Below, piece by piece: positions 11,930-32,823 of a DNA stretch of 55,703 nucleotides (position 1 is the first letter of the stretch; each line of letters begins with the position of its first letter). The notes below the pieces were generated by a model. That model had not been told where the DNA came from, ran no database searches, and saw only the letters and a program-made list of their open reading frames with translations. The translations under genes and the position numbers were made by a program. This stretch comes from Alphaproteobacteria bacterium (GTDB taxonomy: Bacteria > Pseudomonadota > Alphaproteobacteria > SMXS01): positions 1 through 55,703 of the forward strand of contig WGNW01000065.1 of NCBI GenBank assembly GCA_016124315.1, written 5' to 3'.

Positions 11930-12613
11930 ATGAACAGGGCCAGCAATGTGATGGCGTCCGCCATCTGTGCGGCGGTTACTTTGGCCATCGGCGCGACAGC
12001 GGCGTATGCCAACGGCTTCCTCGAAAATCGACCCTGGCAGTTCGATACGGCGAACGACAAGATCGCCAAGGCGTCGATGACCGACCTTATCGAAAAGAAG
12101 AAGGGCGGCTACTACGACGGCTTCCAGACCAACATCAACAACACCTACTCCACGAACATCGCCGGCGACCAGATCAACTGCAATCTTACCGCGTCGGCGA
12201 TCGGCAATACGGGGGCGAATTCGGTCAGCAGCCATGCGTCTTCGCCGTCGGTGGACCTGCCGGGCTCGATCGGCGCCGATGCGACGGGTAACGTCAGCAC
12301 CACGTCGGCCAACGGCAAGGATCCATATACGTCGACCGGCGGTTCCCAGAGCGGCAGCGGGGGCCAGTCCTCGGCGGTCGGACAGGCCGGCCAGCTGACC
12401 AACACGTCGCAGGGCAACACCGACAGCCCGCAGCAAGCGTCGGTCGACAATTCATCCATTTCGAGCAGCGCCGACAACATGAATACGTCCGGGGGAACGT
12501 CGGACGTGGCGCTGAATTCGGACATGAGCAACAGTGACAGTCCGCAGTCTGCTTCGGTTGACAACAGCGAAGCGTGCGGGTTCAGTAAGTCCGCTGCGGC
12601 TCCGTTGAACTGA
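11930..12613 (+). CDS. small secreted Asn/Ser-rich protein, candidate matrix subunit
   Basis: A 227-residue protein. The signal peptide is residues 1-27 and ends ATAAYA before NGF. A polar region with GGYYDGFQTN follows, then QINCNLTASAIGNTGANSV near residues 81-99. This last segment matches the repeat motif of the giant protein encoded at 27544. The C-terminal half is Ser/Asn/Gly-rich and holds two copies of a duplicated unit: DSPQQASVDNSS near residues 164-175 and DSPQSASVDNSE near 203-214. After the signal peptide there are two Cys, in NCNL and EACG, which could pair. The start at 11930 rather than 11906 is set by the GGAGGGGG ribosome site. It is the first gene of a plus-strand run with the CsgG-OmpA gene 64 bases downstream. 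The setting recalls holdfast HfaA/HfaB or curli operons, but the sequence is not recognisably HfaA or CsgA. Confidence 0.7.
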   Translation: MNRASNVMASAICAAVTLAIGATAAYANGFLENRPWQFDTANDKIAKASMTDLIEKKKGGYYDGFQTNINNTYSTNIAGDQINCNLTASAIGNTGANSVSSHASSPSVDLPGSIGADATGNVSTTSANGKDPYTSTGGSQSGSGGQSSAVGQAGQLTNTSQGNTDSPQQASVDNSSISSSADNMNTSGGTSDVALNSDMSNSDSPQSASVDNSEACGFSKSAAAPLN

Positions 12614-12677
12614 GGAGCGGTGCTACCGGATGCTGGGCCATCCGGGGCGTTACAGCGAGGGGCAAGAGGGGGATACC

Positions 12678-13994
12678 GTGATCGTCAGCTGGTCAAAAAA
12701 GATCGTCACCTATTGCGCGATTGTGTCGCTGACCGGGTGCATGGCGTCCGTCGATCACTACAAGCGCAATCCCGACGAGGCGCCCACCATCCAGGGCCCG
12801 CCCGTCACCGACAACACCACGCCCCTTGAAGGCTCCTTCCAGTGCATGGCCCAGAAAATCCGCGAGTCGGGCCACAAGAAGCTCCGCATCGCGGTCGGCA
12901 CCATCAAGGACTACACCGGCAAGTTCAGCGAGGCGGAAGGCGGCAACCCGATCACCCAGGGCGGCTCGCTGATGGTGATGTCCGCCCTCGGCAAGCTGGG
13001 CGACTCGGTCCGGATGCAGGAGCGCTTCGACACCCAGGTCACCGAGCTCGAACTGCGCTATCTGGACCGCCGCTACCTGGGAGACGGCGCCGTCCACGAG
13101 GTGCGCGGCAAGACCGGTTCCAGCCAGAAGGTGCCGTGGAAGCCCTATTACGGCGGCACGATCATCGAGTCCGACTACTTCATCGTCGGCGGCATCACCG
13201 AGCTCAACTACAATGTCCATTCCGGTGGCATTGAGGCCACGGTCGACGGCATCGGCGGCAAGGGCCGCGTGTTCACCGTCAACGTGGCCGTCGACCTGCG
13301 CATCGTCGACACTTCGTCCCTCGAGGTGATCAAGACGGTCAGTCTGCAGAAGCAGATCACCGGCTACGAGGTGGGCGCGAACGTCTTCTCCTTCTTCAAG
13401 AACACCCTGGTCGACGTGAACGCCGGCCTGAAGAGCCAGGAGCCGCTGCAGCTCGGCGTCCGCACCACCCTGGAACTCGGCGTGCTGGAACTGGTCGGCG
13501 CCGTCACCGGCATCGACGAGAAGCCGCTGGTCAATTTCGACGGCGTCAATCCGTGCCCGCCCGCGGGTGGCGCGCCTGCCGCCGTGGCGCCCGAGCCGGT
13601 CGCCGAGGCCCCGCCGCCGCCGGCCGAGCCCGAGGTCAAGAAGCCGACCAACTTCACGGTCTACTTCGCCACCGGCAGCGCCGAGCTGACGGAAGAGGCC
13701 AAGAAGACCATCCACGAGGCGGCGGTGGCCGCGAAGGAAGGCCAGGCCGCGAACCTGCTGCTGGAAGGTCACACCGACACCCAGGGCGGCGAGCTCTACA
13801 ACCTCGATCTGTCACGGCGTCGGGCCGTGGTGGTGCAGGGGGCGCTGGTCTCCGAGGGCATTCCGAAGAACCGCATCTCGCTGGTGTGGTACGGCGAAAG
13901 CCAGCCCGCGGTGAACACCGGCGACAACGTCAACGAGCCGTTGAACCGCCGGGTCGTCATCCAGATCCTGGAAGATACCGCCCTGCTGAAGTGA
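12678..13994 (+). CDS. CsgG/HfaB-type secretion lipoprotein fused to an OmpA-like domain
   Basis: A 438-residue lipoprotein. The GTG start is chosen because it follows AGAGGGGGA and places the lipobox SLTGC so that Cys21 is the lipidated residue. Residues ~45-295 are the CsgG domain, the outer-membrane pore subunit that exports curli or holdfast-anchor proteins; typical segments are LRIAVGTIKDYTGKF, FIVGGITELNYNV and VAVDLRIVDTSSLEV. A Pro/Ala linker of about 30 residues leads to an OmpA/MotB-like peptidoglycan-binding domain at ~330-438. That domain contains VYFATGSAELTEEA, LLLEGHTDTQG, NLDLSRRRA and NEPLNRRVVIQ. Canonical CsgG ends without such a domain. I infer an export pore tethered to the cell wall. 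It is flanked by the small secreted protein and the duplicated-motif protein. Confidence 0.88.
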   Translation: MIVSWSKKIVTYCAIVSLTGCMASVDHYKRNPDEAPTIQGPPVTDNTTPLEGSFQCMAQKIRESGHKKLRIAVGTIKDYTGKFSEAEGGNPITQGGSLMVMSALGKLGDSVRMQERFDTQVTELELRYLDRRYLGDGAVHEVRGKTGSSQKVPWKPYYGGTIIESDYFIVGGITELNYNVHSGGIEATVDGIGGKGRVFTVNVAVDLRIVDTSSLEVIKTVSLQKQITGYEVGANVFSFFKNTLVDVNAGLKSQEPLQLGVRTTLELGVLELVGAVTGIDEKPLVNFDGVNPCPPAGGAPAAVAPEPVAEAPPPPAEPEVKKPTNFTVYFATGSAELTEEAKKTIHEAAVAAKEGQAANLLLEGHTDTQGGELYNLDLSRRRAVVVQGALVSEGIPKNRISLVWYGESQPAVNTGDNVNEPLNRRVVIQILEDTALLK

Positions 13995-14024
13995 TAGCCT
14001 GATGCGAGCCACGGGGGATGCGCG

Positions 14025-15419
14025 GTGAAGCAACGGTGGTTCATATCAGGTTTCGGGGCGGCAGCGCTCACGGCTCTGGTTGCAACCACCGGATGGGGCC
14101 AAGCTCTCAATACGGGCCCCGTCGGCGACACCACCGACGCGTATCCGGGCGAGCCGCTGGGCGGCGTCGACCGGCAGTGGGACGACGAGGACTCCGTTCC
14201 GCCCCAGGTACCCGCGCCAACGGCGTCGGCGAAGCCGGCCCCGGCCGCCGGCAAATCCGCTCCGGAAGATCTGACCTACGGCGTTGAATGGGCGGACCAT
14301 GTCTCGCCGTCGTTCCGGCGCTGGGTGAAGACCGGCAGCGGTCCCGAACCTGCGCCCGTTCAGGCCGAGAAGTGGTCGGCGGAAAGGCCTGCGGCGCAGG
14401 CCGCCGGAACGCCCCCCAACGGACAGCCCTACGGCGTGCAGTGGGCCGAGCACGTTTCGCCTTCCTTCCGGCGCTGGATATCGGGAGACACCACCCCGCC
14501 GCCGCGCGACCTCGGGCCGCTGGCGCGCAACCGGCCCGGTCCCGCCCAGATGTACAGCGACCTGAGCACCATCGAGAATGCGGTCGACAAGCCGTCGCCC
14601 CCGCCAGCGGACAAGGCGGGCGTCGACGGGACGGCGATCCTGATTCAGCGGGCCAGCCGCGGTCACGCCTACGACCTGGTGGCGCCGGAAGGGTCCACCA
14701 TGGGCGCCGAGCTGGTGGCGGGCGTGATCTCGGTGCCGCCGGAGCGCAGCGCCACCTGGGGCACCATCTTCGACCGGATTCCCGAGCGAGGCGCCGATCC
14801 GAAGCGTTTCGAGGGCCCGCTGCCGGGCAGCGGACCGCTGCAGACGATCCCGGTGGCGCAGACCTATGACGGCGGGCCCATCTTCGGCGCCCCCGAGCCG
14901 TTCGAGCGGCCGCCGCGGACCTATGCGGTGGCGCTGTCGCGCAATTCCTTCATGGGCGCGATGCTGAACAACGGCGTGTACGTGGTCTCGGTGACCCAGT
15001 TCGCCAAGGGAGACGTGCCCCAGCCGGGCGAGTTCGTCGTCTATCCCCGCTCGGACTTCCGGCCGTTCGGGGCGATCAACAGCTTCGAGGATCTGAACCC
15101 CTACCGGGACGTCAATGTGGGCCCGCTCCAGCTGGCATCCGATTCGAGCAGCCCGTCGCCGGTGGACCGCAGCCTGTACTCCATGAACAACTACGGCCCC
15201 TGGGGCTATGCCAACGTCCCGCTGAGCGACCGGTGGCCCTACGAGGTCCGCCAGATGCTGATCGACCGCGAGCGGGATCCGCGCCGCTGCTGCGGTCCGA
15301 ATCAAATCATCATCACGCACAATCCCCTGGCACTCATCGTCCTGCCAAATCCCTACGATTCGACGCCGGGGGCGACCTACGGGTTCGTGCCCCTGGCACC
15401 GGGCATGCCCGCCTGGTAG
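14025..15419 (+). CDS. secreted protein of unknown function with duplicated 16-residue motif
   Basis: A 464-residue protein starting at GTG, 30 bases after the CsgG-OmpA gene and therefore in the same operon. The signal peptide is about residues 1-27, ending GWGQA. Residues 85-100 read YGVEWADHVSPSFRRW and residues 136-151 read YGVQWAEHVSPSFRRW. The copies are separated by a Pro/Ala-rich linker. The C-terminal ~300 residues look globular, with many Pro-rich turns and a CC pair in DPRRCCGPNQ. I recognise no family. Operon position suggests a periplasmic or surface accessory to CsgG-mediated export, and the two motif copies could be docking sites. This is inference from context only. Confidence 0.75.
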   Translation: MKQRWFISGFGAAALTALVATTGWGQALNTGPVGDTTDAYPGEPLGGVDRQWDDEDSVPPQVPAPTASAKPAPAAGKSAPEDLTYGVEWADHVSPSFRRWVKTGSGPEPAPVQAEKWSAERPAAQAAGTPPNGQPYGVQWAEHVSPSFRRWISGDTTPPPRDLGPLARNRPGPAQMYSDLSTIENAVDKPSPPPADKAGVDGTAILIQRASRGHAYDLVAPEGSTMGAELVAGVISVPPERSATWGTIFDRIPERGADPKRFEGPLPGSGPLQTIPVAQTYDGGPIFGAPEPFERPPRTYAVALSRNSFMGAMLNNGVYVVSVTQFAKGDVPQPGEFVVYPRSDFRPFGAINSFEDLNPYRDVNVGPLQLASDSSSPSPVDRSLYSMNNYGPWGYANVPLSDRWPYEVRQMLIDRERDPRRCCGPNQIIITHNPLALIVLPNPYDSTPGATYGFVPLAPGMPAW

Positions 15420-15516
15420 GCCGCTCCGGCCGGCATTACGGTCGGCCCTCTGGGATGCCCGTCCGCGGCCTGTATGATACAGCATCGAGTCCACCTCACG
15501 GCAACGGAGAGTGTCC

Positions 15517-16671
15517 ATGCGCATCGGCATCCTGACGGGCGGCGGCGATGTCCCCGGTCTCAATCCCTGCATCAAGGCGATCGCGTCGACCGCCGCCGAA
15601 CTGGGTTGGGAGACCATCGGTTTCCGCCGCGGCTGGGGAGGCCCCCTGAACATCGACCCGGGCGACGAAGAATCGGTCTCCGCCCATACCATCATCCTCG
15701 ACCGCAGCCGCGTGCGCGGCATCGAACGCACCGGCGGCACGATCCTGCACACATCCCGCACCAATCCGGGACGGGTGTCGCGCGCGGATCTGCCGGGCTT
15801 CCTGGAAGGCAGCATCCAGCCCGGCCCCGACGGACGCCTGGACTGCACCCCCCATGTCCTCCGGGTGCTCGAGCGGCTGGGCATCGACGCGCTGGTCGCT
15901 ATCGGCGGCGACGACACCCTCTCCTACGCGGCCCGGCTGCACCAGGAAGGGTTCAAGGTGATGGCGTGTCCCAAGACCATGGACAACGACGTCTACGGCA
16001 CCGACTACTGCATGGGCTTCGGCACCGCGGTCAGCCGCAGCGTCGAGTTCATCGACGCCCTGCGCACGCCGACCGGCAGTCACGAGCGCATCGCCGTGAT
16101 CGAACTGTTCGGCCGCAATAGCGGCGAGACCGCCCTGATCTCCGGCTACCTCGCCTCGGCCGACCGGGTGCTGATCAGCGAGGTGCCCTTCGACGTGGAA
16201 CGTCTGGCCGACCTGGTGATGCAGGACAAGGCGGCCAACCCGGCCGGCTACGCCATGGTGGTGATCTCGGAGGGCGCCGGCACCAGCGGCGGCGACATCG
16301 TGCAGAGCGGCGAGGCCGATCCCTATGGCCACCGCAAGCTGGGCGGCATCGGCCAGACGCTGGGCGAGGAACTCAAGCGGCTGACCGGCCAGGGAATCGT
16401 CAACCAGTCCCTCGCCTACCTGATGCGGGCCGGCGCGCCCGATGCCCTCGATCGGATGGTGGCGTCGGCCTATGGCACCATGGCCGTGCAGAAGCTGGCG
16501 GCGGGAGAAACCGGACTGATGATGGCGCTGCGCGACGGCAACTACGTCACGGTGCCCGTCGACACCTGCATCCAGGGCAAGAAGCGGGTGGACGTCGCAG
16601 CGCTCTACGACACTGACACGTACCGTCCGGTCATCCGGCAGGTCCACGGCAAGCCCATGTTCCTGTACTGA
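15517..16671 (+). CDS. 6-phosphofructokinase, pyrophosphate-dependent type
   Basis: A 384-residue PfkA-superfamily protein that phosphorylates fructose 6-phosphate. Residues 130-134 read GGDDT and residues 152-159 read [11 protein letters not shown]-dependent enzymes have GGDGS and PGTIDND at these places. Asp in the first motif and Lys in the second are the established marks of pyrophosphate-linked enzymes, which run reversibly. The ATG at 15517 is preferred over the GTG at 15511 because the GGAGA ribosome site at 15506-15510 abuts the GTG but is 6 bases from the ATG. It follows the secreted-protein gene by 97 bases on the same strand and may be a separate unit. Confidence 0.88.
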
Positions 16672-16695
16672 GCCGAGGCCGGCCGTTCCCTCCGG

Positions 16696-17421
16696 TCAGG
16701 CGGCGGCGCGCTTCGGCGGTCGGCGCCGGGCCGCGGCGGCGATGCCGAACAGGCCCAGCCCCAGCAGCGCCGTCGTCGCCGGCTCGGGCACGTCGGTCGA
16801 GGCGGTCAGCGACTTGACGTAGAACTGGGTGCCGGCGAACTTGAAGGTCCACACCGCGTGGCTGCCCAGGCTGGTGAAGTCGCTGGTGCCGAACGATTGG
16901 CTGACGCCGTTGAGCAGGAAGGTGCCGGCGGTCAGCGCGTAGTGGTCCGCGTCGCGGAACAGCACGTTGCTCAGGCTGACCGCCTCGCTGAAGGTCAGCG
17001 TGAGGATTTCCTGGAATGTGGCATTGCCGGTGACGTTGTCGTCGTCGTTGGGCACGCACTGGGCGCTGCTGTTGAGCGTCTGGCACACGCCCAGGCCTGC
17101 AGGGCGCCCCGCGTCGTAGTCGTCGAGGTAGGCGTAGGGCGCGCCGCTGGCGCCGGTGGCGTTGGAGTTCTGGCCCGTGGCCACCACCTGCAGGGTCGGA
17201 CCGCCGGTCAGGCTGGTGCCGATCAGCCCGGTCGAAGCGAAGGCGAGACCGATGGCGGCCGCGTCGTTCTCGGCGGGATTGCCGCCCTCGTGGCCGATGG
17301 CGAACGAGCTGAAGTCGAAGTTGACCGCCGTCGCCTCCGCCGGGCGCGAAGACAGGACGACCGATGCCGCCATTGCGGCTACCACGCAGGCGATACGCCC
17401 GCCCGATCCCATGGTACGCAT
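16696..17421 (-). CDS. PEP-CTERM sorting domain protein
   Basis: A 241-residue exported protein. The signal peptide is at residues ~8-31 (IACVVAAMAASVVLS core). The body is beta-rich and holds two Cys in VCQTL...SAQCVP. The C-terminus has the full PEP-CTERM tripartite signal: VPEPATTA, a hydrophobic stretch ALLGLGLFGIAAA, and a basic tail RRRPPKR. Such proteins are processed by an exosortase (EpsH/XrtA) and are often tied to exopolysaccharide production. No exosortase is in this window. The start at 17421 follows CGGGGGC and begins the signal peptide; the longer frame to 17487 adds an implausible leader. An AT-rich stretch at 17480-17515 is the likely promoter area. Confidence 0.85.
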   Translation of the reverse strand: MRTMGSGGRIACVVAAMAASVVLSSRPAEATAVNFDFSSFAIGHEGGNPAENDAAAIGLAFASTGLIGTSLTGGPTLQVVATGQNSNATGASGAPYAYLDDYDAGRPAGLGVCQTLNSSAQCVPNDDDNVTGNATFQEILTLTFSEAVSLSNVLFRDADHYALTAGTFLLNGVSQSFGTSDFTSLGSHAVWTFKFAGTQFYVKSLTASTDVPEPATTALLGLGLFGIAAAARRRPPKRAAA

Positions 17422-17571
17422 GAGTCTGCCCCCGATGATCAAATGCCCCGCCTCAGGCGAGATGTCAGCCGGCGCCAAGAATAACATAAAATTTGAAACA
17501 AAAATATCCGGATTCGTAACGACCCCCGCTGAGCGGGCGCCGTGCCGGCCGCAGCCCCGGATGAGTGCCCG

Positions 17572-19698: not shown

Positions 19699-19790
19699 GT
19701 CTGGCTCCTCTCTCTGTCTCGTTCGCCCCTGGGGCGGTTCGCCCCCGTCCAAGCGTGATGATAGGCGACAAAACCGCCGGGGCCGCGATT

Positions 19791-20956: not shown

Positions 20957-23900
20957 TCAGTAGTCCAGCTTGTATTGCAGCTTGAACTTCTGGTTGCCGG
21001 TGCTGGTCGCTTCCGTGCCCACGCTCAGATGCTTGGTGATGTCGATGTCGACGGAGGCCGAAGTGGCGTTCTCCTCCTCCGTGGCGCTGCCGAACTCCAC
21101 GTAGATGTTCTTGGTAAGGTACTTGCCGCCGCGGATCACCGGTCCGCCGCCGCTGTCGTTGGTGCTGCCCGGCGTGTCCCGGGTGCCGACGGTCAGGCGG
21201 TCCAGGCTGAAGGCGTTGCGCAGCTTGCCGAGCACGTCGAGGCCGGAGCCGGAGCTGCTGAGCGAGGCGACGGCGGCGCCGAGCTGGGCGGCCTCGAAGG
21301 CGGTCAGATTCTGCTTCTCCTCGCCGAACAGCACCCGCGAGATGATCTCGTCCTGGGGCAGCTCGGGATTGGAGGACAGCTTGATCTGCGGGTTCGACGC
21401 CCGGCCGGTGAGGGCGATCTCGGCCGACAGGGAGGAGGTGGAATAGACGGCATGCGCGTTCAGGACGGGATCGATGTCGCCGCCGCCCACCAGCTCGATA
21501 GAGGAGCCGTCCTGCAGCTCGAACTTGCGGCCGGCGAAGTCGAACCGGCCCCGCACCAGCTCGATGCGGCCCTGCAGCGACGGATTGGCGAGAGTGCCGC
21601 GCACCCGTACCTTCCCGCTCCACTCGGAGTCGAGGCCGCGACCGCGGACGAAGAGCTGGTTCTGCGCCTGCACGTCGATCTTGAGCCGGGTGCTGAACTT
21701 GCTTTCCTTCGGCTTCTCCGGCAGCTCGATGAGGCCGGGCGGCCGGTGCAGTTCCTTGACGTTGAGCTTGATGATGTCGTCGGAGGCGCTGGTCGCCAGC
21801 GAATATTCGGCCGTGTTGACCGTGGCCTGTCCGCTGAGCACCGCGTTGTGCGCCTTGCGGACATATTCGATCGATCCCGTCGCCTTGGCCGACATGTTGC
21901 GCTTGTTGAGCACCCGCGCCTTGTCGAACGCCACCTTGATGTCGGCCTCCATGCCGTGGGGCGCCAGCGGCTTCACCCAGCCCGACAAGGTGATCGAGCC
22001 GTTCTTGCCGTCCGTCGCCGCCGTGGAGGGCAGCTTGAGAAGGTTGTTGTCGAGGGTGAAGCGCACATCCCGTGACTCGATCTTGATGCCCGTGGACAGG
22101 CTGCGATATTTCAGGCCGGCGATGGTGAAGGTGCCGTTCAGGGTGGGCGAGGTCACGCTGCCGGTGATATGGGCGTTCATGGTCGCCTGGCCGTCGAGGA
22201 TGTGCTCGTAGGCGCCGGTCAGCGGCCACACCTGGCCGAGGTCCAAATTGCCTTTCAGCGCCACGTCGAGCGGCTTGGTCTCGTCGACCTGCAGCGACGT
22301 CGGTCCGTCGCCCCTGGTCACCGGCAGGTCGGCGTTCACCGACAGCGCCTCCTGGGCGCCGGTCCGCACCGTGAGATCGGCGTTGAGCCGGTTGTCGCGC
22401 AGCGTGCCCTTGGCGTGGAAGTCCACCTGCTCCTGGTCGAGCGTGTCCTCGACGACGAGGTGGTCCACCTGGATGTCGAACTGACCGGTCGGGGAGGGGC
22501 CCAGATCCACGTCGGCGTCGACGCTCAGCTTGCCCTGGACCTTGAGGCCGCCGGTGAGCAGGGCGAGCGCGCCCAGGTCGACCTGCTTCGCCGAGACCTT
22601 GGCCTTGCCGGTCTTGCCGGTGAGCAGTGCCTGGGCCTCGATGGGGGCGCCGTTGTAGGTCAGGCGGACGGGCCCGACCTGGGTGCGGTTCTCGGCCAGC
22701 ACCAGGGTCGCCGGCGACGACAGGGCAATCTTCTGTCCAGCCAGGGTGCCGTCGAGCGACTCCAGGGTGATGGTGTTGGGGGGGCCGAGGACCGCCCGGT
22801 CCGCCCGCGCCTTCAGGGTCACCGACAGCGGGCCCTGATAGTCGCCCTTGGTGGAGGCCGCGATCTCGAGCCCGTTGCCCACGGGCGTCACCTTCATGGA
22901 GAGCTCGGTGAGCTTGGCGCGGTTGATGGTGATGGTGCCGCTTTCGAGCCCCAGATGCCGGATGTCGAGCGCCTTGCCCAGCACCAGGTCGCCGGTCAGC
23001 CGGGCGTTGTCGGCGGCGACCGAGTCCGCAGCGGTCGGCGACAGGGAGAGGTTCTTGGCGGTGATGTCGAACGTAACGCCCTGGGCGTCGTCCACCGGCT
23101 TGAGGTCGACGTCCAGGTCCACATCGCCGGCGGCGGGCATCCCGGCCAGGGCGGTCAGCAGTGCCTTGCCCGACACCTTGCCGGTGAGCTTGCCGCTGAT
23201 CGGCGCGCCCAGGCCCGCCGCCTCCAGCCGTCCCTTGAGGTCGATGGTGGCGCCGCTCACGGTGATCGGATCGGCGGTCCAGTGCCCGTTCTCGTCCATC
23301 TCGAACGGGATCCTCGCCTGCACCTTCTCGCCGTCCATGACGGCCGCGGCCTGCGCCTCGCCATGGGCGGCGCCCGCGACGTCCTTCACGTCGGCCGAAA
23401 GCGACAGGTCGCTGAACTGGAGGCCCGAGACCGCGGCGGACTTGAGCGAGGTCTGCAGGGTGACGTCGGGAGAGCTGGTCTCGCCCTTGAGCGTGCCGTG
23501 GAGTTCCAGCGGCCCGGCGGTCTCCAGCGAGCCGCCGGTCAGTGCTGCCGCGTCGGCGAAGCGCGCCTGGAATGCCGCGTCCACCGTCTCGCCGATCCGG
23601 CCGTCGATCCGGGCCGTCACCTGGGCGCCGTCGAGGGAGCCTTTCAGGTCGCCCGTCCCGCTGCCGGCAGGGTCGTCCATGGTCAGCTGGAAGCTGGGCG
23701 AGGCGCCCACCAGGCCGGCCAGCTTGGGATCGGCGAGCGCCAGACCAGAGCCCTTGCCGTCTGCGCGCACCAGGAGGCGGCCGCTGTCGGGGCGCCACTG
23801 CACCTTTGCCGAGGCCTCGATCCGGCCCGACTTCGCCGCTTGCGTCCACTGTCCGAGGTCGGCGGCCACGACCGAGACGTTGCCGTCGATCGCGAGAGGA

Positions 23901-25294
23901 TGGAGCGAGACCGTGCCGTCGGCCGCGATACGGCTGCCGTCGTCCGAAAGCTTGGCGCTGGCGATGCGGATGCGGCCCTTGTCGGGATCATAGCTGCCGT
24001 CGACGCTCCAGTCGGCGCGCAGGGTCCGCGCGCCGGTCTTGACGCCCTCGGCCGCGCCGGAGCCCTTGATGCCGAACGGCGCCCCCGAACCGGCTTGGGT
24101 GAGGGTGACGGCGCCGCCGAGGCGCGATGCCGTGAGCTTGGGCCCGCTCAGCCCGTCGATGCGGACGTCTGCGGTCACCGTGCGGCCGTCGCCGCCGGCC
24201 TTCGCCCGGCCGTCCACGGTCACCTGGTCGTAGCGCCAGTCGCCCAGCAGGGGCGCGAACCAGGCCGCATTGCGGGAGCGAATGGCGAAGCTGGGAGACA
24301 TCATCGCCTCCCGGTCCTCCAGGCTGCCCTGGATGCGGAGTTCGGCGCCCTTGTTCAGCAGGGTCGCGTCGTAGTCGGCAGGCATGCCGTCCTTGAGCCC
24401 GACCACGATGGTGACCGCCGGCTCGCCGATCAGCGCGGTCGTCTGGTTCTTCGCCAGGAACGGCCGCGGGTCGATGGTGCCGGCGATCCGGACGCGGTCG
24501 GTGACCGCGATGTTCAGGTCGGCGATGCGGTCGCCGCCCCGGCTGCCTTCCAGCGAGCCGTGCCAGTTGTCGATGGGCCCCTTCCCGGACAGCGTCAGCG
24601 CGATGTCCGCCTTCTCGCCGGGGAACAGGAAATTGCCCAGGCCGCCGCCGGCCTTGGCCTTGAGCTTGCCGTCGAGGGTGAGCTGGCCGCGCGGCTTGTC
24701 GTAGTCCAGCGCCAGCCGCGCGAACTCGCCCTGGGCATCCTGCGGCGCGAGGGCGAGCCGGATCTCGATGGCCGGCCCGCCGCTCCAGCGGCCGGCGCCG
24801 AGCAGCGTGAAGGGCGTCTCCTCGCCCTCGAAGCGCACCGTGTCCACCTTCAGCCGCTCTAGCCGCAGGTCGACGGGCAGGTTGGGGATGAGCGGGCCGG
24901 TGCTCTTCTGCTGGCTGGGCGGCGGCTGCGCCAGGGCGAGGCTGTCGGCGTGCAGCCGGTCGATCCGCACCTTGCCGGCCAGCAGCCCGAGATGGCTCCA
25001 GTCCACGCTCAGCCCGCGCAGGTCGGCGACGGTCTGGCCCTGCTGGGCGTAGACCAGGCGGTCCACGGTGAAGTGGGAGAGCGGATCGCCCTTCAGGCCC
25101 TCCACCTTGGCCACCGTGTCCGTCGCGGGATCGCTCAGCGCGTCCTCGACGATGCCGGCGATCATGCCGTCGAAGGCGCCCGCGCGCACCAGCACGTAGG
25201 CGATCAGCAGCAGGCCCAGCACGACCCCGAGGATCGCCGCCGGGATCCAGACGAGAGGCGGAACGCGCCGCGTCTTTCCGGTGTCTTCGGCCAT
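20957..25294 (-). CDS. tamB: translocation and assembly module protein TamB
   Basis: A 1445-residue protein. An N-terminal membrane anchor (LVWIPAAILGVVLGLLLIAY, residues ~13-32) is followed by a long periplasmic region of repeated beta strands of the AsmA/TamB type. The conserved C-terminal DUF490 domain contains FRGRGLDSEWSGKVRVRG-like and LELVRGRFDFAGRKFEL-like segments and ends KFKLQYKLDY. TamB spans the periplasm, works with TamA to insert some outer-membrane proteins, and is also linked to phospholipid transport. Its ATG shares one base with the tamA stop (TGATG), so the two are translationally coupled. Confidence 0.93.
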   Translation of the reverse strand: MAEDTGKTRRVPPLVWIPAAILGVVLGLLLIAYVLVRAGAFDGMIAGIVEDALSDPATDTVAKVEGLKGDPLSHFTVDRLVYAQQGQTVADLRGLSVDWSHLGLLAGKVRIDRLHADSLALAQPPPSQQKSTGPLIPNLPVDLRLERLKVDTVRFEGEETPFTLLGAGRWSGGPAIEIRLALAPQDAQGEFARLALDYDKPRGQLTLDGKLKAKAGGGLGNFLFPGEKADIALTLSGKGPIDNWHGSLEGSRGGDRIADLNIAVTDRVRIAGTIDPRPFLAKNQTTALIGEPAVTIVVGLKDGMPADYDATLLNKGAELRIQGSLEDREAMMSPSFAIRSRNAAWFAPLLGDWRYDQVTVDGRAKAGGDGRTVTADVRIDGLSGPKLTASRLGGAVTLTQAGSGAPFGIKGSGAAEGVKTGARTLRADWSVDGSYDPDKGRIRIASAKLSDDGSRIAADGTVSLHPLAIDGNVSVVAADLGQWTQAAKSGRIEASAKVQWRPDSGRLLVRADGKGSGLALADPKLAGLVGASPSFQLTMDDPAGSGTGDLKGSLDGAQVTARIDGRIGETVDAAFQARFADAAALTGGSLETAGPLELHGTLKGETSSPDVTLQTSLKSAAVSGLQFSDLSLSADVKDVAGAAHGEAQAAAVMDGEKVQARIPFEMDENGHWTADPITVSGATIDLKGRLEAAGLGAPISGKLTGKVSGKALLTALAGMPAAGDVDLDVDLKPVDDAQGVTFDITAKNLSLSPTAADSVAADNARLTGDLVLGKALDIRHLGLESGTITINRAKLTELSMKVTPVGNGLEIAASTKGDYQGPLSVTLKARADRAVLGPPNTITLESLDGTLAGQKIALSSPATLVLAENRTQVGPVRLTYNGAPIEAQALLTGKTGKAKVSAKQVDLGALALLTGGLKVQGKLSVDADVDLGPSPTGQFDIQVDHLVVEDTLDQEQVDFHAKGTLRDNRLNADLTVRTGAQEALSVNADLPVTRGDGPTSLQVDETKPLDVALKGNLDLGQVWPLTGAYEHILDGQATMNAHITGSVTSPTLNGTFTIAGLKYRSLSTGIKIESRDVRFTLDNNLLKLPSTAATDGKNGSITLSGWVKPLAPHGMEADIKVAFDKARVLNKRNMSAKATGSIEYVRKAHNAVLSGQATVNTAEYSLATSASDDIIKLNVKELHRPPGLIELPEKPKESKFSTRLKIDVQAQNQLFVRGRGLDSEWSGKVRVRGTLANPSLQGRIELVRGRFDFAGRKFELQDGSSIELVGGGDIDPVLNAHAVYSTSSLSAEIALTGRASNPQIKLSSNPELPQDEIISRVLFGEEKQNLTAFEAAQLGAAVASLSSSGSGLDVLGKLRNAFSLDRLTVGTRDTPGSTNDSGGGPVIRGGKYLTKNIYVEFGSATEEENATSASVDIDITKHLSVGTEATSTGNQKFKLQYKLDY

Positions 25295-27168
25295 CAGAAC
25301 GCCTGCCCGATGCTGACGTAGATCTGGAAGGTACTGTCCTGCGGCCGGCCGTTGATGGGGAAGGCGACGTCGACGCGCAGCGGTCCGAACCCGGTATAGT
25401 AGCGCACGCCGATGCCGGCGCCCCAGCGCAGGGTGCGCGAGAAATCGGGATACGAGCTGTCGAACACGCTGCCTCCCTCGATGAACGGCACGACGCCCCA
25501 GGTGTCGGTCAGCTTGATGCGCATCTCGGCGCCCACCTCGAACAGCGACCGGCCGCCGATGGGGTCGCCGTTGGCGTCGAGCGGGCCGATGCGCTGGTAG
25601 CCGTAGCCGCGGATCGAATCGCCGCCTCCTGCGTAGAACCGCTTGGCGGCGGGAACGTTCCTGATGTCGGAGGCGCCGACCAGCGAGCCGAGCTTGAGGC
25701 GCCCGGCCGCCACGTAGCGGCCCGCGTCATCGAGGCTCACATAGACGCTGGCGTTGCCCTCGATGCGGATGAAGTTCTTGGTGTCGCCGAACACCAGGTA
25801 GGGTGCGACCTTCAGGCCAAGCCGGTAGCCGTGCTTCGGGTCCAGAAGGTCGTCCGTGTGATCGTAGCTCGCCTGGCCGACCAGACCCAGCAGCACCGAC
25901 TTGGCGGGCGAGAAGGCATCCTTCGTGTCGACATAGGAAAGTTCGGGGCCGACCCGGACCCGCAGCCGCTTGTTGACCTCGCGTTCGACGGCGGCGCGGA
26001 TCACGCCGCGATACTCCAGGTAGGCGTCGGTGTCCTCGCGCGCGGCCTCGACGCCGAGCAGCAGCTTTTGGTCGATCCGCAGGAAGCGCGGCTTGGTGAA
26101 GTCCGCGGTCGCCTTCTGGAGCTTCTGGTCGCCCTCCGCCTCGAGCTTCAGCCGCTCGCCGGCGCCGAACAGGTTGCGGTGCTCCCAGAACACCGAGCCG
26201 CCGAAACCGTTGACGGTGGAATAGGATGCGGTGGCGCCCACCGAATGATGGTCAGCCTCGCGCAGCTTCACCTTGATCGGCTGGCGGTCGCCGTCCTGCA
26301 GCGGGTCGTCGGTATCGATGCGGATCGAGGCGAACAGGTTCATCTCGGTCAGGGTCTGGCGGAACTTGTCCAGCTTGCGGCTGTCGTAGCGCTCGCCCGG
26401 TTTCCAGGTGACCACCTTTTTGACCACCCCCTGCTTCACCGAGGTGAGCCCGCTGATACTGACCTGGCCGAACTTCACCAGCGGCCCGGTCTCGATGCGG
26501 ACCTTGGCGGTGAACTTCTTGGTGCGGTGGTCGGCGGTGAAGTCCTGGTCCGTCACCTTGGCCCGGGGGTAGCCGTTCTCGGGCAGGGCGGACATGACCG
26601 TGCCGAAGGCGGCGGCCACCGTCTCGCTGCGCGCCGCCTTGCCTTCCTGGGCCTTGGCGGTCTGCCGGGCCAGCTTGGTGACCTTGTCGGGAAGCGCCGC
26701 CGGGGAATCGAGCGTGATGGTGTAGGAGCCGATGGTGAACCGTTCGCCCGGCTCGATCTTGATGGTCACCTTGATGGGTTTGCCCGAGCGGTCCACGTCG
26801 TAGCTGATCCGGGCGCCGTAGTAGCCTTCGGCCCGCATCACCTCGGCGAAGCCGGTGATGTCGCGCCGGATTCGTGCGCGCAGGTCCCAGATGGAGACGG
26901 GCTCCTCCTTGCGCAGCCGGACCAGATCGGAACGGTCCTTCAGGGGCTGCTCCAGCCCGGTGCCCTTCAGGCCGGTGATGTCCACCTTGTAGGCGTAGGA
27001 CGGAAGACCCTGCTCCTGATCTCCCGTGTCCGCGTCCGCACTCGGCTTGTCCTTGGCGGCCCAGGCCGGCAACGCGCCGGCCAAAATGAAAAGCGCCCCG
27101 ATGCCCAGGGCCAGCGTCAGCATTTTAGAGGCCGGCCGAATCACCGCTCTCCCTTTGGCGGGCGTCAT
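25294..27168 (-). CDS. tamA: autotransporter assembly factor TamA (Omp85 family)
   Basis: A 624-residue Omp85-family outer-membrane protein. A signal peptide (MLTLALGIGALFILAGALPAWA) is followed by three POTRA-like domains up to about residue 290 and a 16-strand-type barrel. The barrel contains the lid-loop motif GGGDSIRGYGYQ (family motif [V/I]RG[F/Y]) and ends in VSIGQAF with a terminal Phe. It is the first gene of a tamA-tamB unit. Upstream it is divergent from the giant repeat protein gene. The start could also be the internal Met16, because neither has a strong ribosome site. Confidence 0.92.
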   Translation of the reverse strand: MTPAKGRAVIRPASKMLTLALGIGALFILAGALPAWAAKDKPSADADTGDQEQGLPSYAYKVDITGLKGTGLEQPLKDRSDLVRLRKEEPVSIWDLRARIRRDITGFAEVMRAEGYYGARISYDVDRSGKPIKVTIKIEPGERFTIGSYTITLDSPAALPDKVTKLARQTAKAQEGKAARSETVAAAFGTVMSALPENGYPRAKVTDQDFTADHRTKKFTAKVRIETGPLVKFGQVSISGLTSVKQGVVKKVVTWKPGERYDSRKLDKFRQTLTEMNLFASIRIDTDDPLQDGDRQPIKVKLREADHHSVGATASYSTVNGFGGSVFWEHRNLFGAGERLKLEAEGDQKLQKATADFTKPRFLRIDQKLLLGVEAAREDTDAYLEYRGVIRAAVEREVNKRLRVRVGPELSYVDTKDAFSPAKSVLLGLVGQASYDHTDDLLDPKHGYRLGLKVAPYLVFGDTKNFIRIEGNASVYVSLDDAGRYVAAGRLKLGSLVGASDIRNVPAAKRFYAGGGDSIRGYGYQRIGPLDANGDPIGGRSLFEVGAEMRIKLTDTWGVVPFIEGGSVFDSSYPDFSRTLRWGAGIGVRYYTGFGPLRVDVAFPINGRPQDSTFQIYVSIGQAF

Positions 27169-27543
27169 TGCCGCCGGCTTGCATTTCTTGCGCGCATCCC
27201 GTCGCCCCCGCCGGGGGACACCGGTGTAACGTCGCTACGGCCCCAAAGTTCACGCCGCTCGGTCATCGGGCGCTGTTTCATTCCGGCGGCCGTAGCCACC
27301 CGGCCCGCGCCGTACAACGTCATGGCGCGTCAGGGTAAATTATGTCCGCGGGCACAGGAATCCAGTGGCGGCGGCCGGTAGTGATATGTTCGTGACCGCA
27401 CAATACCGTGTTGTAAGGGTCATTTCGCTTGAGTATGCTGAGCAGCAATCATCGGTGCCTCTGCGAGGGAAGGGCCGGTGGTGCCTATTAGGGCATGGCA
27501 GGCCGCTGTTCGAGGGGTGGCGGCGATTTTGATGGGGGCTTTC
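27169..27543. other. divergent intergenic region, tamA / giant repeat protein
   Basis: This 375-base region holds both promoters. An inverted repeat, GCTACGGCC at 27234-27242 and GGCCGTAGC at 27288-27296, brackets 45 bases. AT-richer patches occur at 27330-27345 and 27385-27430 (GTGATATG, ACAATACCG, TTGTAAGGG). A clear GATGGGGG ribosome site lies before 27544. I cannot place a definite promoter or known operator. Confidence 0.5.
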
Positions 27544-30500
27544 ATGCGTAAGAATCAGGTGCTGGCGACAGTCAGCGGTCTCGCTATCGCGGTGGGAATG
27601 GCTGGCGGTGCTCTGGCCGACACGAATCCCAACCTACAGATCGACTGGCTGGCGCAGACCATCGCCATCGACCCCGGATCGAATGCGGACGAGATCGCGA
27701 ACGTCCAGATCAACAGTGCCGTGGCTTTTACCGCATCGGTTCTGACAGCCGATATCGGCGATCCCTCTTCCGGCTTCCAGGACTATGATGGAGGCATCGT
27801 GGCGATCGACGTGCTGTCGAACCAGGTGTACACGTCGGCTTACCCCCTGATCTCGACCAACACCGCCGACTTCTGGATTGCGACCAGCACCGATCCGGAT
27901 GGTTCGGCCGTCACCGTCTCGTCGCTCAGCGTCAACAAGGCCGCTTCGTCCGTGCTGTCCACGGTGTCCGCGGCCGAGGTCCTGGCTAGTTCGGAGGATC
28001 TGGGCGCGGGCAGCTCCCAGAATGTCAACAGCAACTCGATCACCGCCTCGGCCACGGCCAATACCGTGAACAGCGCGCTCACGGGCGACATCAACCCGGA
28101 CATCCTGGGTGGCGAGCGCGGCGTGGCGGAAATCAACCGCACTTCCGGCCAGATCAACGCCAGTGCCACCGGCCTCGTCTCGTCGGCCCAGTACAATGCC
28201 GACATGGCGGATTCCAGCGCGTCGGTCGATTCGTCGCGCATCGGCTCGCTGGCGACGGTCAACGACAAGACCACCACCATCCAGGGCGTCGACCTGAACG
28301 TGGTCGGCAACAGCATCGAGGCGGCGTTCACGGGCAATGACGGCACCAATACCGTCGACATCAACGACGCGCTCGACCCCAACCACACCAGCTATTCGAC
28401 CCTCGCGGGCGGTTCCCTGGGCGTGGCGAGCTCGCAGACCAACGGCCCGTCGAACAATCCGTCGACCTACACGGCCCAGGTGAAGGGATCGGTCATCGAG
28501 GCCGGCGACAGCGGCACGGCCACCGAGATCGGCAATCTGACGGACAGCGCGATCACGTTCAGCGCCAACGACATCCAGTCGATGGCCACCGGCAACACGG
28601 CCACCAATACGCTGCATACGATCGGCGTGAACATCGACGGCGAGTTCCCGGGCGGCACCCGCGAATATTCCGCCATGGCCAATTCCGGATCGCCCGTATT
28701 GGCGGGCGGTCAGGTCCGTGCGATCGGCGATCTGTTCGTTGCAAGCCTGCAGGACGGCGAGGCGCTGTCACTTGTCAGCGACGTCGGCACCGGCGGCGAC
28801 GGCGACCTGAATGTGCTGGTCGAGAACGTCGCGTCGTCCACCGTACTGGCGGGCGACGGCAATCTGTCCGACAAGGTGGCCGACGGCAACAGCATCGGGG
28901 CCAGCGCCACGTTCAACACCGTCGTCAATACCATCAACGTCGAGGACGCGACCACATTCAGCGGCGCCGTCTCCATGTCGAGCGGTCAGGCGATGGCCAA
29001 TGGCAGCGCCGCTAAGTCGACGTCCAACGGCGATCTCACGGTCAGCGTGGCCACCGCCGGCAGCAAGGTCGGCAGCATCAAGGACAGCGCCGTGACCGTC
29101 GACGGCAACAGCCTGTTCAGCCAGACGGAGGGCAATGTCGGGACCAACACCATCTCCATCGCTGGGACGGACATCACCGGCGGCAACGTGAAGTCCCAGA
29201 CGGGTTCGGGCTTCCATCCCACCCGTTCCGACCATTTCAACCTGGCGCCGCGTACCTCGACGGACTTCGCGCTGGTCAGCGCTCAGCGCGCCTCCGACTC
29301 CGACGCCTCCGCCGCGACCGTCGGCAGCGTCGTGGTCAAGGCGGCCGACGTATCGGGTCTGGCGGCCTCGACGATCGACACGTCGGCCATCAGCGCCTCG
29401 GGCAACAGTTCCTCCTCGCTGGCGATCGCCAACCGGATCGGCGAAAACAGCATCACGGTCGACGGAACCAGTGTGGACGCGACCATGGGCGTCGTGAACT
29501 GGCAGCTGACCCAGGGCGGCGACGGCGTGGCGACCGACCATTACGCGCTGAGCGCGTCGGTGTCTCCCACCGACGACGTCGCCCTCGCCGGCGATGCCGT
29601 GGTGGATGTGAACGCCACGGTCCTGCGCACGGTCGATTCCTCCATCAATGCCGACGCCAACGACATCAGCGCGCGGGTCTACGGCAACCTGGTGGACGCC
29701 AACACGAATTCGCTGAACGTCACCGGCGTCACGGTCAGCGACGCGCTGGCGATCGACAACGCCGAGGCGAAGGTCGACCGGCTCGCCAATGCCGACAGCC
29801 TGCCCCTCACCTACATCGACGGCGGCTTCATGGTCCTCAACGACCAGAGCGTCGAGGACACCAGCAACAAGATTCTCGGTGACGTTCCCTGGGCGGCGAC
29901 GGTGACCGGCAACTTCGTCGACGTGAGCGTCGGCAGCACGGACACCACCGCGTCGATCAAGAACTCGACGGTGACCGCGAGCGACAACACGATCACGGGC
30001 GCCATCACCGTAAACCAGGGCAACAGCGGCCTCACCGTTGCTGCGACCTCGCTCGATGCCAACAGCACGCTCGTCAATACCCAGTCGTACCTCAACGAAG
30101 CCGGCGGCGTGTCCGACCGGTCGGGCAGCCTGAAGGTCAGCGTGACGGGCAACACCCAGGTGGCCATCGACTCCGGATCCGGCGCCTCGATCGTCGACAC
30201 GACCGCCCAGGCGAACGGCAACGACGTCCTCGCCTCCGGCCGGATCAACAGCGCCGCCAACGCGGTGGACATCACCGCGCAGACGCAGACCGTCACCAAC
30301 GTGATCGGCGCGGTCGACAAGAACGAGGTGAGGGTGGGCGTCACCCTGTCAGCGGGACTTTATCGCAGCATCACGACGGTCCGCTCCGAAACCGGGCTCG
30401 CCAACGACCAGGCGTTCGACGCTCTCGCGCCGACCGGCATCGCCGTCTCCATCGACAATGCGGACACGCTGCTCACGCTCACCACCAATGCCGGCACCAT

Positions 30501-32823
30501 GGTTGACAGCGTCGGTGAGACCAACGGCAACTCGTTGCGCTCTCAGGCGCTCGGCAACGACGCCTCGAACTCGCTGGCCCTCAATGTCGGCTCCTTCGAC
30601 CTGACCGGCGCCGGTACGGGCGGCGCGCTGGTCAACGGCCCGCTGGGCGTCATCGGCAACAACCAGACGGCCGTCAACAACGCGGTCGACAGCGGCTCCT
30701 TCGCGCCCACCATCAGCAAGTCCGACATCATCACCAACGCGGACGCGGTGGATGCCATCAGCGGGTCCAACCTGTCGGCCGACTCCAACAGCATCCGCAC
30801 CTTGGCCCGCATCAACAACGGCGTGAACACGCTCGATGTCTCCGGTTCGACCTACGACAACATCGTGACGGCGACGCCGCGCATCCGTGCCCTGGATGTT
30901 GACACGGTTGGCAACCCGGGCATCTCGGCGGCGGCCGACGATCTGGCGTTCGGCATCGGTTCCTACCAGATCAACGCCTACAACATCGCCACCAAGCTCG
31001 ACACCAACACCATCCAGGTGCAGTCCAGCGGCGCGGCCACCATCGACGGTTCGTCCCTGTCGGTGTCCGGCAATGCCCTGGTGGCCGAGGGCCGCGCCAA
31101 CGACGTGGCGAACAGCTTCGGCGGCGGCTTCACCAACGACGCCCTGTCCGGCTTCATCGTCACCGTCCAGCAGACCGAGGATGGCGGCGCCACCCTCGGT
31201 GCCACGGCCAGCACCAATACCGTCAAGCTGACCGCCGATGCCGGCGCCAACACCCTGACCGACAGCAGCTTCAATGTGGACGGCAACGCCGTTGCCGCGC
31301 TGATCTCGGCCAACCGGGCCTCCAACTACGCCGCGGCATCGGTCACCAACGCCACCAGCGGCAGCGGATATACCACCCCCAGTGCGGTGGTCGATGCGTC
31401 GCTCACCAAGGGCGACCTGACGGCCAACGTGGACTTCGGCATCGTCAACGCGCAGGGTTCCGAGACCACTGCCGGGCCGGCCGACAAGCTGACCGCGACC
31501 GTGTCCACGACGACCATCGTGTCGGATCTCGACACGCTGGTCTCCGGCACGGCGACCGTGGACAACAACCTCGTCCTCGCCCAGTCGGTCATCCATAGCG
31601 CCACCAAGTCCACGTCCGACCCGTCGATGAACTACGGCAATCTGCTGACCATCGATGCGTCGGCCAATGTGGGGACCGTCGGCGACATCCCGAGCGCGGC
31701 GATCATCTCCCAGCAGGTGATCTCGGCCGGCAGTACGTCGACCGCCGCCCTCACGACCACCAAGATCGGCACCACCATCAACGATCCTTCCAACGCCGCG
31801 TCGGCCTCGGCGTCCGTATCGGGCAACCAGGCTCTCGCTCAGGCGACCGGCGGCGTCGCCACCAACCGGCTGAACGTGAATGCGGGTGCCGACATTCTCG
31901 GCGGTACGCCGGCCGCGGCGCCGGTGTTCGGCACCGCCAACAAGTACACGCTCAATGCAGACTACAACGTCCTCAACGACCAGTTCGGTACCGGGACCAT
32001 CGCGGCGAGCGCCACGACGACGACTCTCCTGGCGACTCTCAACGACTCGGTGAGCTCCGACTCGGTAACCGTCGACGACAACGTGGTGCAGGCGGCCGCC
32101 ACCGGCTTCAGCGAGACCTCGATCCTCGACATGACGGCCGGGGCATCGAGCGACGTGACCGGTCAGGTGGGGAACGCCCAGACACTGACCAACTCCGGCG
32201 TCAGCACCTCGCTGACCGGGACCACCATCGCCAGCACCATCGACGGCGACGCGCTCAACAGCGGCCTGACGGTGTCGGGCAACCAGGCCTCGGCGCTGAC
32301 GACCGGCAACACCGCCCTCAATGCCCTGCTCACCAGCGCCGACGCGTCGTTGCAGGAAAGCAGCGGCGCAGGCGGCACCGTGAGCTCGGCCACGGGCATC
32401 TCCGTCACCGGCGCCGACTACGCCGTGCTCAACTGGCAGCAGAACAATGGCGGCACCCTGTCCAGCAGCGTCAGCACCACCGGGATCGGCGCGGACAACC
32501 TCAGCGGCGCGGGCGGCGTGGACAGCAGCTCGGTCGAGGTGATGAACAACCAGGTTCAGGCCAGCACGACCGCCAACAATGCGGTCAATACGCTGGTGCT
32601 GAACACGGGCACGTTCCAGCACCCGAGCGCGTCGGTCTCCAACCTGCAGACCGCCTCCAACACCTCGGTCAGCGCCTCGGTCGACACCGCCGGCGTCGGC
32701 ATTGGCCTGGGCGGCGGCCTGATCAGCGGCACCAGCAGCAACAGCTCGTTCACCGTGCGCGGCAACTCCATCGGCGCCACGGCGGTGGGCAATGCGGCGA
32801 CCAACAGCGTGCTGGGCAACTGA
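27544..32823 (+). CDS. giant secreted repeat protein, about 20 imperfect GN-motif repeats
   Basis: A 1759-residue protein of unknown function. Start 27544 is chosen because GGGGG lies 6 bases before the ATG and a signal peptide follows at once (QVLATVSGLAIAVGMAGGALA, cut before DTN); the in-frame GTG at 27478 adds a poor leader. The mature protein is low in Cys, Lys and aromatics and rich in Ser, Thr, Ala, Asn, Asp and Gly. The motif [GSD]-N-x-[ILV]-x-A-x-A-x-G-N-x3-N-[ST]-[ILV] recurs about 20 times at an average spacing near 87 residues (range roughly 67-109), the last copy at the C-terminus (GNSIGATAVGNAATNSV). It is usually preceded by [DN]-S-[ST]-[IVL]-x-V-x and followed ~25-50 residues later by a second submotif, [VL]-[NS]-x-Q. 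A beta-solenoid or amyloid-like fibre subunit is likely. No membrane anchor or sortase signal is visible at the C-terminus. An intrinsic terminator follows the gene. Confidence 0.85.
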   Translation: MRKNQVLATVSGLAIAVGMAGGALADTNPNLQIDWLAQTIAIDPGSNADEIANVQINSAVAFTASVLTADIGDPSSGFQDYDGGIVAIDVLSNQVYTSAYPLISTNTADFWIATSTDPDGSAVTVSSLSVNKAASSVLSTVSAAEVLASSEDLGAGSSQNVNSNSITASATANTVNSALTGDINPDILGGERGVAEINRTSGQINASATGLVSSAQYNADMADSSASVDSSRIGSLATVNDKTTTIQGVDLNVVGNSIEAAFTGNDGTNTVDINDALDPNHTSYSTLAGGSLGVASSQTNGPSNNPSTYTAQVKGSVIEAGDSGTATEIGNLTDSAITFSANDIQSMATGNTATNTLHTIGVNIDGEFPGGTREYSAMANSGSPVLAGGQVRAIGDLFVASLQDGEALSLVSDVGTGGDGDLNVLVENVASSTVLAGDGNLSDKVADGNSIGASATFNTVVNTINVEDATTFSGAVSMSSGQAMANGSAAKSTSNGDLTVSVATAGSKVGSIKDSAVTVDGNSLFSQTEGNVGTNTISIAGTDITGGNVKSQTGSGFHPTRSDHFNLAPRTSTDFALVSAQRASDSDASAATVGSVVVKAADVSGLAASTIDTSAISASGNSSSSLAIANRIGENSITVDGTSVDATMGVVNWQLTQGGDGVATDHYALSASVSPTDDVALAGDAVVDVNATVLRTVDSSINADANDISARVYGNLVDANTNSLNVTGVTVSDALAIDNAEAKVDRLANADSLPLTYIDGGFMVLNDQSVEDTSNKILGDVPWAATVTGNFVDVSVGSTDTTASIKNSTVTASDNTITGAITVNQGNSGLTVAATSLDANSTLVNTQSYLNEAGGVSDRSGSLKVSVTGNTQVAIDSGSGASIVDTTAQANGNDVLASGRINSAANAVDITAQTQTVTNVIGAVDKNEVRVGVTLSAGLYRSITTVRSETGLANDQAFDALAPTGIAVSIDNADTLLTLTTNAGTMVDSVGETNGNSLRSQALGNDASNSLALNVGSFDLTGAGTGGALVNGPLGVIGNNQTAVNNAVDSGSFAPTISKSDIITNADAVDAISGSNLSADSNSIRTLARINNGVNTLDVSGSTYDNIVTATPRIRALDVDTVGNPGISAAADDLAFGIGSYQINAYNIATKLDTNTIQVQSSGAATIDGSSLSVSGNALVAEGRANDVANSFGGGFTNDALSGFIVTVQQTEDGGATLGATASTNTVKLTADAGANTLTDSSFNVDGNAVAALISANRASNYAAASVTNATSGSGYTTPSAVVDASLTKGDLTANVDFGIVNAQGSETTAGPADKLTATVSTTTIVSDLDTLVSGTATVDNNLVLAQSVIHSATKSTSDPSMNYGNLLTIDASANVGTVGDIPSAAIISQQVISAGSTSTAALTTTKIGTTINDPSNAASASASVSGNQALAQATGGVATNRLNVNAGADILGGTPAAAPVFGTANKYTLNADYNVLNDQFGTGTIAASATTTTLLATLNDSVSSDSVTVDDNVVQAAATGFSETSILDMTAGASSDVTGQVGNAQTLTNSGVSTSLTGTTIASTIDGDALNSGLTVSGNQASALTTGNTALNALLTSADASLQESSGAGGTVSSATGISVTGADYAVLNWQQNNGGTLSSSVSTTGIGADNLSGAGGVDSSSVEVMNNQVQASTTANNAVNTLVLNTGTFQHPSASVSNLQTASNTSVSASVDTAGVGIGLGGGLISGTSSNSSFTVRGNSIGATAVGNAATNSVLGN

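Follow-up and report, generated by a model that had tools for sequence, protein, structure and literature searches.

A CsgG-OmpA pore of the HfaB family, a small secreted protein and multi-copy giant repeat proteins form a linked candidate surface-secretion system in an alphaproteobacterium

The closest described relatives of the system reported here are curli and the holdfast anchor, whose CsgG-type pores have known substrates much smaller than the giant repeat proteins we consider. A study on Caulobacter reports that targeting of HfaA and HfaD depends on HfaB and that HfaA multimers need HfaD (PMC6707917). CsgA homologues reach 529 amino acids (aa) in a 2012 curli survey, which also mentions four Shewanella adhesins of very large size whose repeats are curli-like (PMC3521004), the nearest published echo that we found. 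In a review, the curlin repeat itself is given as a pair of N-x-hydrophobic-x-hydrophobic-x-Q motifs with x-G-x-x as the bridge between them (PMC12822426). We analysed a stretch of 55,703 nucleotides, called the window throughout, which is contig C65 (WGNW01000065.1) of the 3.95-Mb, 84% complete draft genome of an Alphaproteobacteria bacterium (GCA_016124315.1). It encodes a CsgG-type pore with an OmpA domain, a small secreted protein and a giant repeat protein, which together, with slightly better than even confidence, we take to be a nucleation/anchoring secretion system belonging to the HfaB branch of CsgG pores. The features concerned are the following:

11930..12613, forward strand: P0002, small secreted partner of 227 aa with a signal peptide, the conserved stretches RPWQFDTANDKIAK and GDQINC, and one AIGN motif
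12678..13994, forward strand: P0003, the pore, an HfaB-family CsgG protein with a C-terminal OmpA domain (Pfam, NCBIfam, structure matches and tree)
12738-12740, forward strand: predicted lipobox cysteine of P0003 (LTGC, read from sequence)
12876-13511, forward strand: CsgG domain of P0003 (Pfam)
13662-13946, forward strand: OmpA domain of P0003 (Pfam)
14025..15419, forward strand: P0004, secreted protein of 464 aa and possible accessory, with the motif YGV.WA.HVSPSFRRW twice and no Pfam or NCBIfam family
14277-14342 and 14430-14495, forward strand: the two motif copies of P0004 (residues 85 and 136)
27544..32823, forward strand: P0001, giant repeat protein of 1759 aa; its 16-17 units, each about 88 aa long, occupy approximately 28009 to 32811

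The coordinates and sequences of the four genes, and the duplicated motif of P0004, were as given in an earlier note on this DNA when read back from the sequence: P0002 contains NLTASAIGNTGANSV and the C-terminus of the giant is SIGATAVGNAATNSVLGN. The open reading frame (ORF) of P0003 opens at 12630 (454 aa) with a likely start at 12678, and that of the giant opens at 27478, where the start at 27544 (MRKNQVLATVSG) agrees with the starts of its paralogues and gives 1759 aa. Neither P0002 nor P0001 reached the cut-off of any Pfam or NCBIfam family. Signal peptides and a lipobox can be read in the sequences, from which we propose that pore, small protein and giant are exported by Sec.

The CsgG domain of the pore scores 60.5 bits against a Pfam cut-off of 20.8 (E value 1.9e-16) and its OmpA domain has an E value of 4.3e-20, confirming the CsgG-OmpA architecture claimed earlier. 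The lipoprotein signal LTGC places the cysteine at Cys37, which is invariant in 7/7 aligned rows. The best NCBIfam match is HfaB (NF037935) with 234.9 bits, below the cut-off of 300, and five other pores of the clade likewise match this model below the cut-off (214-240 bits). A profile of the P0003 family matches solved CsgG (1.4e-14) and solved Pal structures. In a tree of 38 pore sequences, rooted at the midpoint, three groups are resolved: canonical HfaB (16 rows, support 96/97), the branch of the window pore (12 rows, 100/98) and, as the third, a group of 10 rows (100/100). The window clade sits next to holdfast HfaB. The earlier reading of the pore is to be corrected accordingly: it is a member of the HfaB family that stands in a clade of its own. 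An OmpA domain is found on the pores of the window's genus, of genome G007 and of Halomonas. Since the other five clade pores, being too short or without a match, have no detected OmpA domain, we regard it as a variant of the branch and not as its definition. Among 60 genomes, the window's own being one of them, orthologues of P0003 show 84–85% identity in G001, G002, G003 and G006 and 74% in G007, with a cut copy in G005. The window's genome has one copy each of the small gene and the HfaB-type pore, and it encodes a second CsgG-domain protein (L001, G000:C16:4280-4813; 99.7 bits) with no match to the HfaB model.

The linkage of small gene, pore and repeat protein is established by their recurrence in 12/12 loci of the window pore clade, 6 of which come from one family: in all 12, the pore has a small-family gene as its neighbour and a repeat protein in the vicinity. 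Within the window the giant begins 12.1 kb beyond the end of P0004 and 13.5 kb from the pore. The earlier note had given about 12 kb and had based the linkage on a shared motif; the distance holds when counted from P0004, and the linkage now rests on co-occurrence. The repeat protein is located within 2.4 kb of the pore in 9/12 loci and at about 12–13.5 kb in the remaining three, the window and two congeners (nearest giant at 13.5 kb in the window, 11.8 kb in G001 and 13.4 kb in G002). Small gene, pore and P0004 follow one another in G003 and G006, with the giant directly after P0004; in G007 pore and giant share a strand, the giant lying 1.0 kb downstream. Of the 13 loci yielded by a scan of named genomes, three that carry the system belong to organisms beyond the close relatives: Halomonas alkaliantarctica and metagenome-assembled genomes of Arenicella and of a Rhizobiaceae member. 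Beside each of these pores, of which that of H. alkaliantarctica carries the OmpA domain, we found a small-family gene and a repeat protein (2159, 1597 and 467 aa, respectively). In G087 the pore lacks an OmpA domain and is accompanied by a small-family gene and, at a distance of 2.3 kb, by a repeat protein of 362 aa; G496 and G514 have small gene, pore and repeat proteins of 1002 and 1029 aa. The small protein in G496 and G514 is present by construction, because both loci were found through it, and in G514 its gene is a profile match absent from the ORF caller's list. The repeat protein served as query for none of these loci. A small-protein profile matched 3/398 genomes across the phylum, including the window's own, and 1/151 in the Halomonas family; P0002 alone matches 7/60 genomes, again including its own. 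This gapped presence in Alpha- and Gammaproteobacteria suggests horizontal transfer. One member resides in the genome of a named isolate, H. alkaliantarctica FS-N4.

P0004 was found in the window's genus, with one 35% partial match in G007 (7/60 genomes), and its motif occurs once in four orthologues and is missing from a truncated copy in G004. A Halomonas protein in the equivalent slot was considered as a homologue and rejected, the two being unrelated. The proposal of an accessory role for P0004 is weak in view of this occurrence and of the unrelated occupant in Halomonas.

The earlier reading also has to be corrected for the giant, which is one of 11 long paralogues. Used as a query in its own genome, it matches 14 places, the 11 long ones and three pieces at contig ends. 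The long paralogues are open frames of 1561–1793 aa, one running off its contig; for two of them the match contains one internal stop, yet their ORFs are uninterrupted at 1723 and 1739 aa. G003 and G006 have five giants each and G007 three. Profile A3 finds one repeat protein each in Halomonas, Arenicella, G087, G496 and G514; it missed the 467-aa Rhizobiaceae protein, which the motif and unit profiles detected. Lengths across the clade extend from 362 to 2159 aa and, if these proteins are substrates of the pore, would be a natural series for testing the effect of repeat number on fibres. A tree of 22 giants and an outgroup, which leaves out a 1260-aa frame of G001 in addition to the four long frames named below, contains groups common to several species as well as pairs from the same genome; in two of these pairs (C46, C83) both giants share a contig. 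Giants diverge fast (L095-L114, L033, L035): those of the same genus are 36–50% identical to the window giant, compared with 84–85% for the pore and 71–76% for the small protein. PG_binding_1 proteins adjoin giants in Halomonas and G007 (L117 18836-20190; L037 503-1225), a second possible link to peptidoglycan.

The repeats are real in comparison with shuffled sequences. Two motif regular expressions match the window giant 8 and 10 times; in 1000 shuffles they average 0.28 and 0.63 matches, with maxima of 3 and 4. By a 25-aa profile, iterated on 23 giants, each giant has 11–19 copies and the window giant 16; 115 shuffled giants gave 0. The copies are spaced at a median of 88 aa (349 gaps), and 17 units are found in the window giant by a whole-unit profile. 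The previous count of about 20 was thus slightly high. The set of 23 had missed four long frames owing to the ending filter or contig ends (L033 13474, L098 8812, L099 636, L112 2056), all of which are recovered by the whole-unit profile. In an alignment of 277 units, namely those of the 349 gaps that measure 66–100 aa, two columns are Asn in 99% and 87% of units and another is Gln in 97%; the Asn conservation is partly built in because both Asn columns lie inside the seeding motif, and the Gln lies outside it. Cysteine is absent past residue 60 or the signal region in 26/27 repeat proteins (G087 and G514 left out of the count), and the two cysteines of the exception precede its likely start. 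By comparison, 17 other window ORFs of 300–1500 aa average 7.4 Cys per 1000 residues. Lys and Arg together make up 1.0–3.2% of the repeat proteins. Two cysteines are kept in 8/8 members of the small family. Judged from sequence, the Gln/Asn columns and near-absence of cysteine are amyloid-like features.

From these observations we infer secretion through the pore, a fibre state and adhesion in the following manner. Pore, small protein and giants would be exported by Sec. The pore would form a lipid-anchored CsgG-type channel in the outer membrane, which the OmpA domain, going by domain homology, would tie to peptidoglycan. The small protein, whose gene is immediately upstream and which retains two cysteines, may stay at the pore or pass out through it, and may hold the giant or nucleate it, comparable to the dependence of HfaA multimers on HfaD in Caulobacter. 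The giants, which lack cysteine and contain little Lys/Arg, would leave unfolded; once on the surface they could form beta-solenoid fibres or adhesins in which each unit contributes one Asn and one Gln position to a ladder, and one pore would serve the giant paralogues of the genome. It is possible, and we put it forward only tentatively, that one wall-anchored CsgG-type pore exports about 11 different amyloid-like giants of roughly 1700–1780 aa, far larger than curlin subunits, as an exchangeable surface-fibre coat, in a system patchily distributed in Alpha- and Gammaproteobacteria. If true, a branch whose pore has its own peptidoglycan anchor and whose substrates are giant and multi-copy would extend the range of cargo known for the CsgG-type route.

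We also assessed whether small and giant proteins resemble each other beyond composition, a lack of which the earlier note had named as refuting. In hhalign comparisons the real pair beats both column-shuffled controls in 14/15 family pairs, the exception being the giant with the third-group small protein. As probabilities were only 0.1–17.3%, homology between small protein and giant, or across families, is not claimed on this basis. A motif profile trained on giants and built without small proteins lists 4/7 small-family ORFs (E values 0.0009, 0.012, 0.12 and 0.35); among 611 ORFs these and one HfaA (0.32) are the only matches at an E value of at most 1 beyond giants, fragments and the G087 repeat protein. 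With the unit profile, searched against 724 ORFs, the first match after the repeat proteins is the Arenicella small protein (1.1e-4). The small-family profile had no non-member below an E value of 0.42. A short AIGN-type motif is found in 8/8 small proteins, 28/29 repeat proteins, 5/6 HfaA and 4/5 HfaD, against 29/637 background ORFs, and in 7/7 and 3/3 of the third-group partners. A variant expression matches 7/8 small proteins and 28/637 background ORFs. Shuffles of the short proteins give only 0.1–0.6 matches per family. Motif expressions were written after looking at these families, whose members are related, which makes the counts descriptive. If the giants are substrates of this branch, a common substrate motif for HfaB-type pores would be suggested, open to testing. 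A two-part expression (A then B) was tried as a common signature and dropped, matching 14/29 repeat proteins, 1/6 HfaA, 2/5 HfaD and 0/8 small proteins.

For the C-terminal 592 aa of the giant an all-beta fold is predicted from an alignment of four sequences (best model: predicted local distance difference test, pLDDT, 69.9; predicted template modelling score, pTM, 0.72). Weak top matches in Foldseek include autotransporter passenger domains, and many of them are beta-helix proteins; FapC is at rank 38 with a non-significant E value of 4.6. The model is compatible with a beta-solenoid but is no proof of it.

Several results weigh against the secretion system as we propose it. The hhalign probability for small protein and giant is 1.9% (E value 0.025, with 0.72 and 0.76 for shuffled columns). 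P0002 itself scores 0.012 with the giant motif profile and is not listed by the unit profile among the 724 ORFs, so that the refuting condition of the earlier note is escaped only weakly. Among the ten best matches of the HfaA and HfaD profiles there are neither giants nor small-family members. AIGN-type matches number 92 in the 29 repeat proteins, with 19.5 expected in shuffles; since shuffles already give that many, presence of the motif in long proteins says little. The remaining C-terminal models of the giant reach pLDDT 62.9 and, in three of five, about 31, Foldseek returned 0 PDB matches at an E value of at most 0.001, and the structure model of P0002 (pLDDT 34) was discarded as unusable. 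The 362-aa G087 repeat protein has two cysteines. G004 (100% complete, 110 contigs) keeps giants and a truncated P0004 and has no match to the small protein or a CsgG/HfaB pore, a state that may reflect recent loss, an assembly gap or giants not needing the pore. G008 has a giant fragment (166-aa frame) without pore or small protein. No pore or small-protein match was found in G009.

Other readings were weighed against the one preferred here. The repeat proteins could be monomeric long adhesins or a sheath or S-layer-like coat without amyloid character. Large size, low charge, the all-beta prediction and the weak passenger-domain matches would fit such proteins, whereas the regular Asn/Gln positions and the linkage to a CsgG-type pore resemble functional amyloids; we consider this reading unlikely. 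The likeness to curli consists of a CsgG-domain lipoprotein pore and secreted repeat proteins with regular Asn/Gln positions. Compared with the curlin repeat as given in the review, Asn/Gln positions and alternation are common to both, and the curlin layout does not occur in the giant unit of about 88 aa. Neither the curlin repeat (PF07012) nor CsgF (PF10614) was detected in any of the five genomes searched, and both were found in the E. coli control, in line with the absence of classical CsgA repeats and CsgF noted earlier. With the Fap functional amyloid the system shares surface repeat proteins, as far as these can be proposed from sequence; its pore differs in being CsgG-type.

Alternatively, pore, small protein and repeat proteins could be a true holdfast-type anchor tethering a secreted polysaccharide, with the giants as elongated HfaD equivalents instead of free fibres. 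The system indeed resembles HfaABD in its HfaB-family pore, the small upstream partner, a third repeat-bearing partner, a gene order as in hfaA-hfaB-hfaD and the short (S/T)A(I/V)GN motif in the partners of both. PF02563 polysaccharide-export genes are present in 5/5 genomes tested; this family is a general one. The system differs from HfaABD by its separate pore clade, by a pore that in Halomonas and the window's family has an OmpA domain, and by a multi-copy repeat protein of up to 2159 aa. The NCBIfam model of HfaA (NF037934) matches neither P0002 nor any of 7 small-family members, and that of HfaD (NF037936) neither P0001 nor any of 5 repeat proteins of other genomes, though both match the canonical control locus L076 (137.5 and 366.5 bits). 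For this reason we regard the system as working like HfaABD without being a member by its partner models, and a holdfast anchor proper as improbable. Together with the pore tree, the missing partner matches back the previous suggestion of a distinct branch.

Least probable is a pore dedicated to the small protein alone, with giants that surface otherwise, e.g. with TamA-TamB help, and share the locus for co-regulation: TamB and TamA are divergent neighbours of the window giant (window 20957-27168, reverse strand), pairs that resemble them by eye stand next to a giant in G002, G003 and G006, and G004 has giants without a pore match, but most giant paralogues have other neighbours, the repeat protein is within 2.4 kb of the pore in most clade loci, and by eye no such pair stands beside the repeat protein in the Halomonas, Arenicella, Rhizobiaceae and G496 loci.

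The proposed HfaB-branch secretion system is, as a set of genes, real and linked, and it is undescribed within the literature searched: titles and abstract starts in PMC, a scope that most subscription journals fall outside, mentioned no CsgG-OmpA fusion in combination with giant repeat proteins. The region 11500-15600, scanned for promoters and terminators, yielded 0 and 3 sites against 0.5 and 2.5 expected. Read by eye, a phosphofructokinase-like gene follows P0004. A PEP-CTERM protein is encoded 1.3 kb downstream of P0004 (window 16696-17487, reverse strand). The truncated P0004 of G004 (L094 2-1699, contig C87) adjoins, by eye, a transposase-like fragment at the contig end.

The third HfaB subgroup (L041, L042, L043, L044, L045, L089, L091 and L092, from G037, G003, G024, G167, G223 and G103) likewise joins an HfaB-family pore to partners bearing an ATAVGN motif, and differs from the window system by its separate position in the tree and its different partners. 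Two partners at locus L089 match no NCBIfam family at an E value of at most 1e-5. The pore is followed by a 274–584 aa protein with repeated ATAVGN motifs and often by a small secreted protein, and by eye these loci lie near response-regulator-like genes. Five copies of such pores are present in G024, and G003 has one as its second pore.

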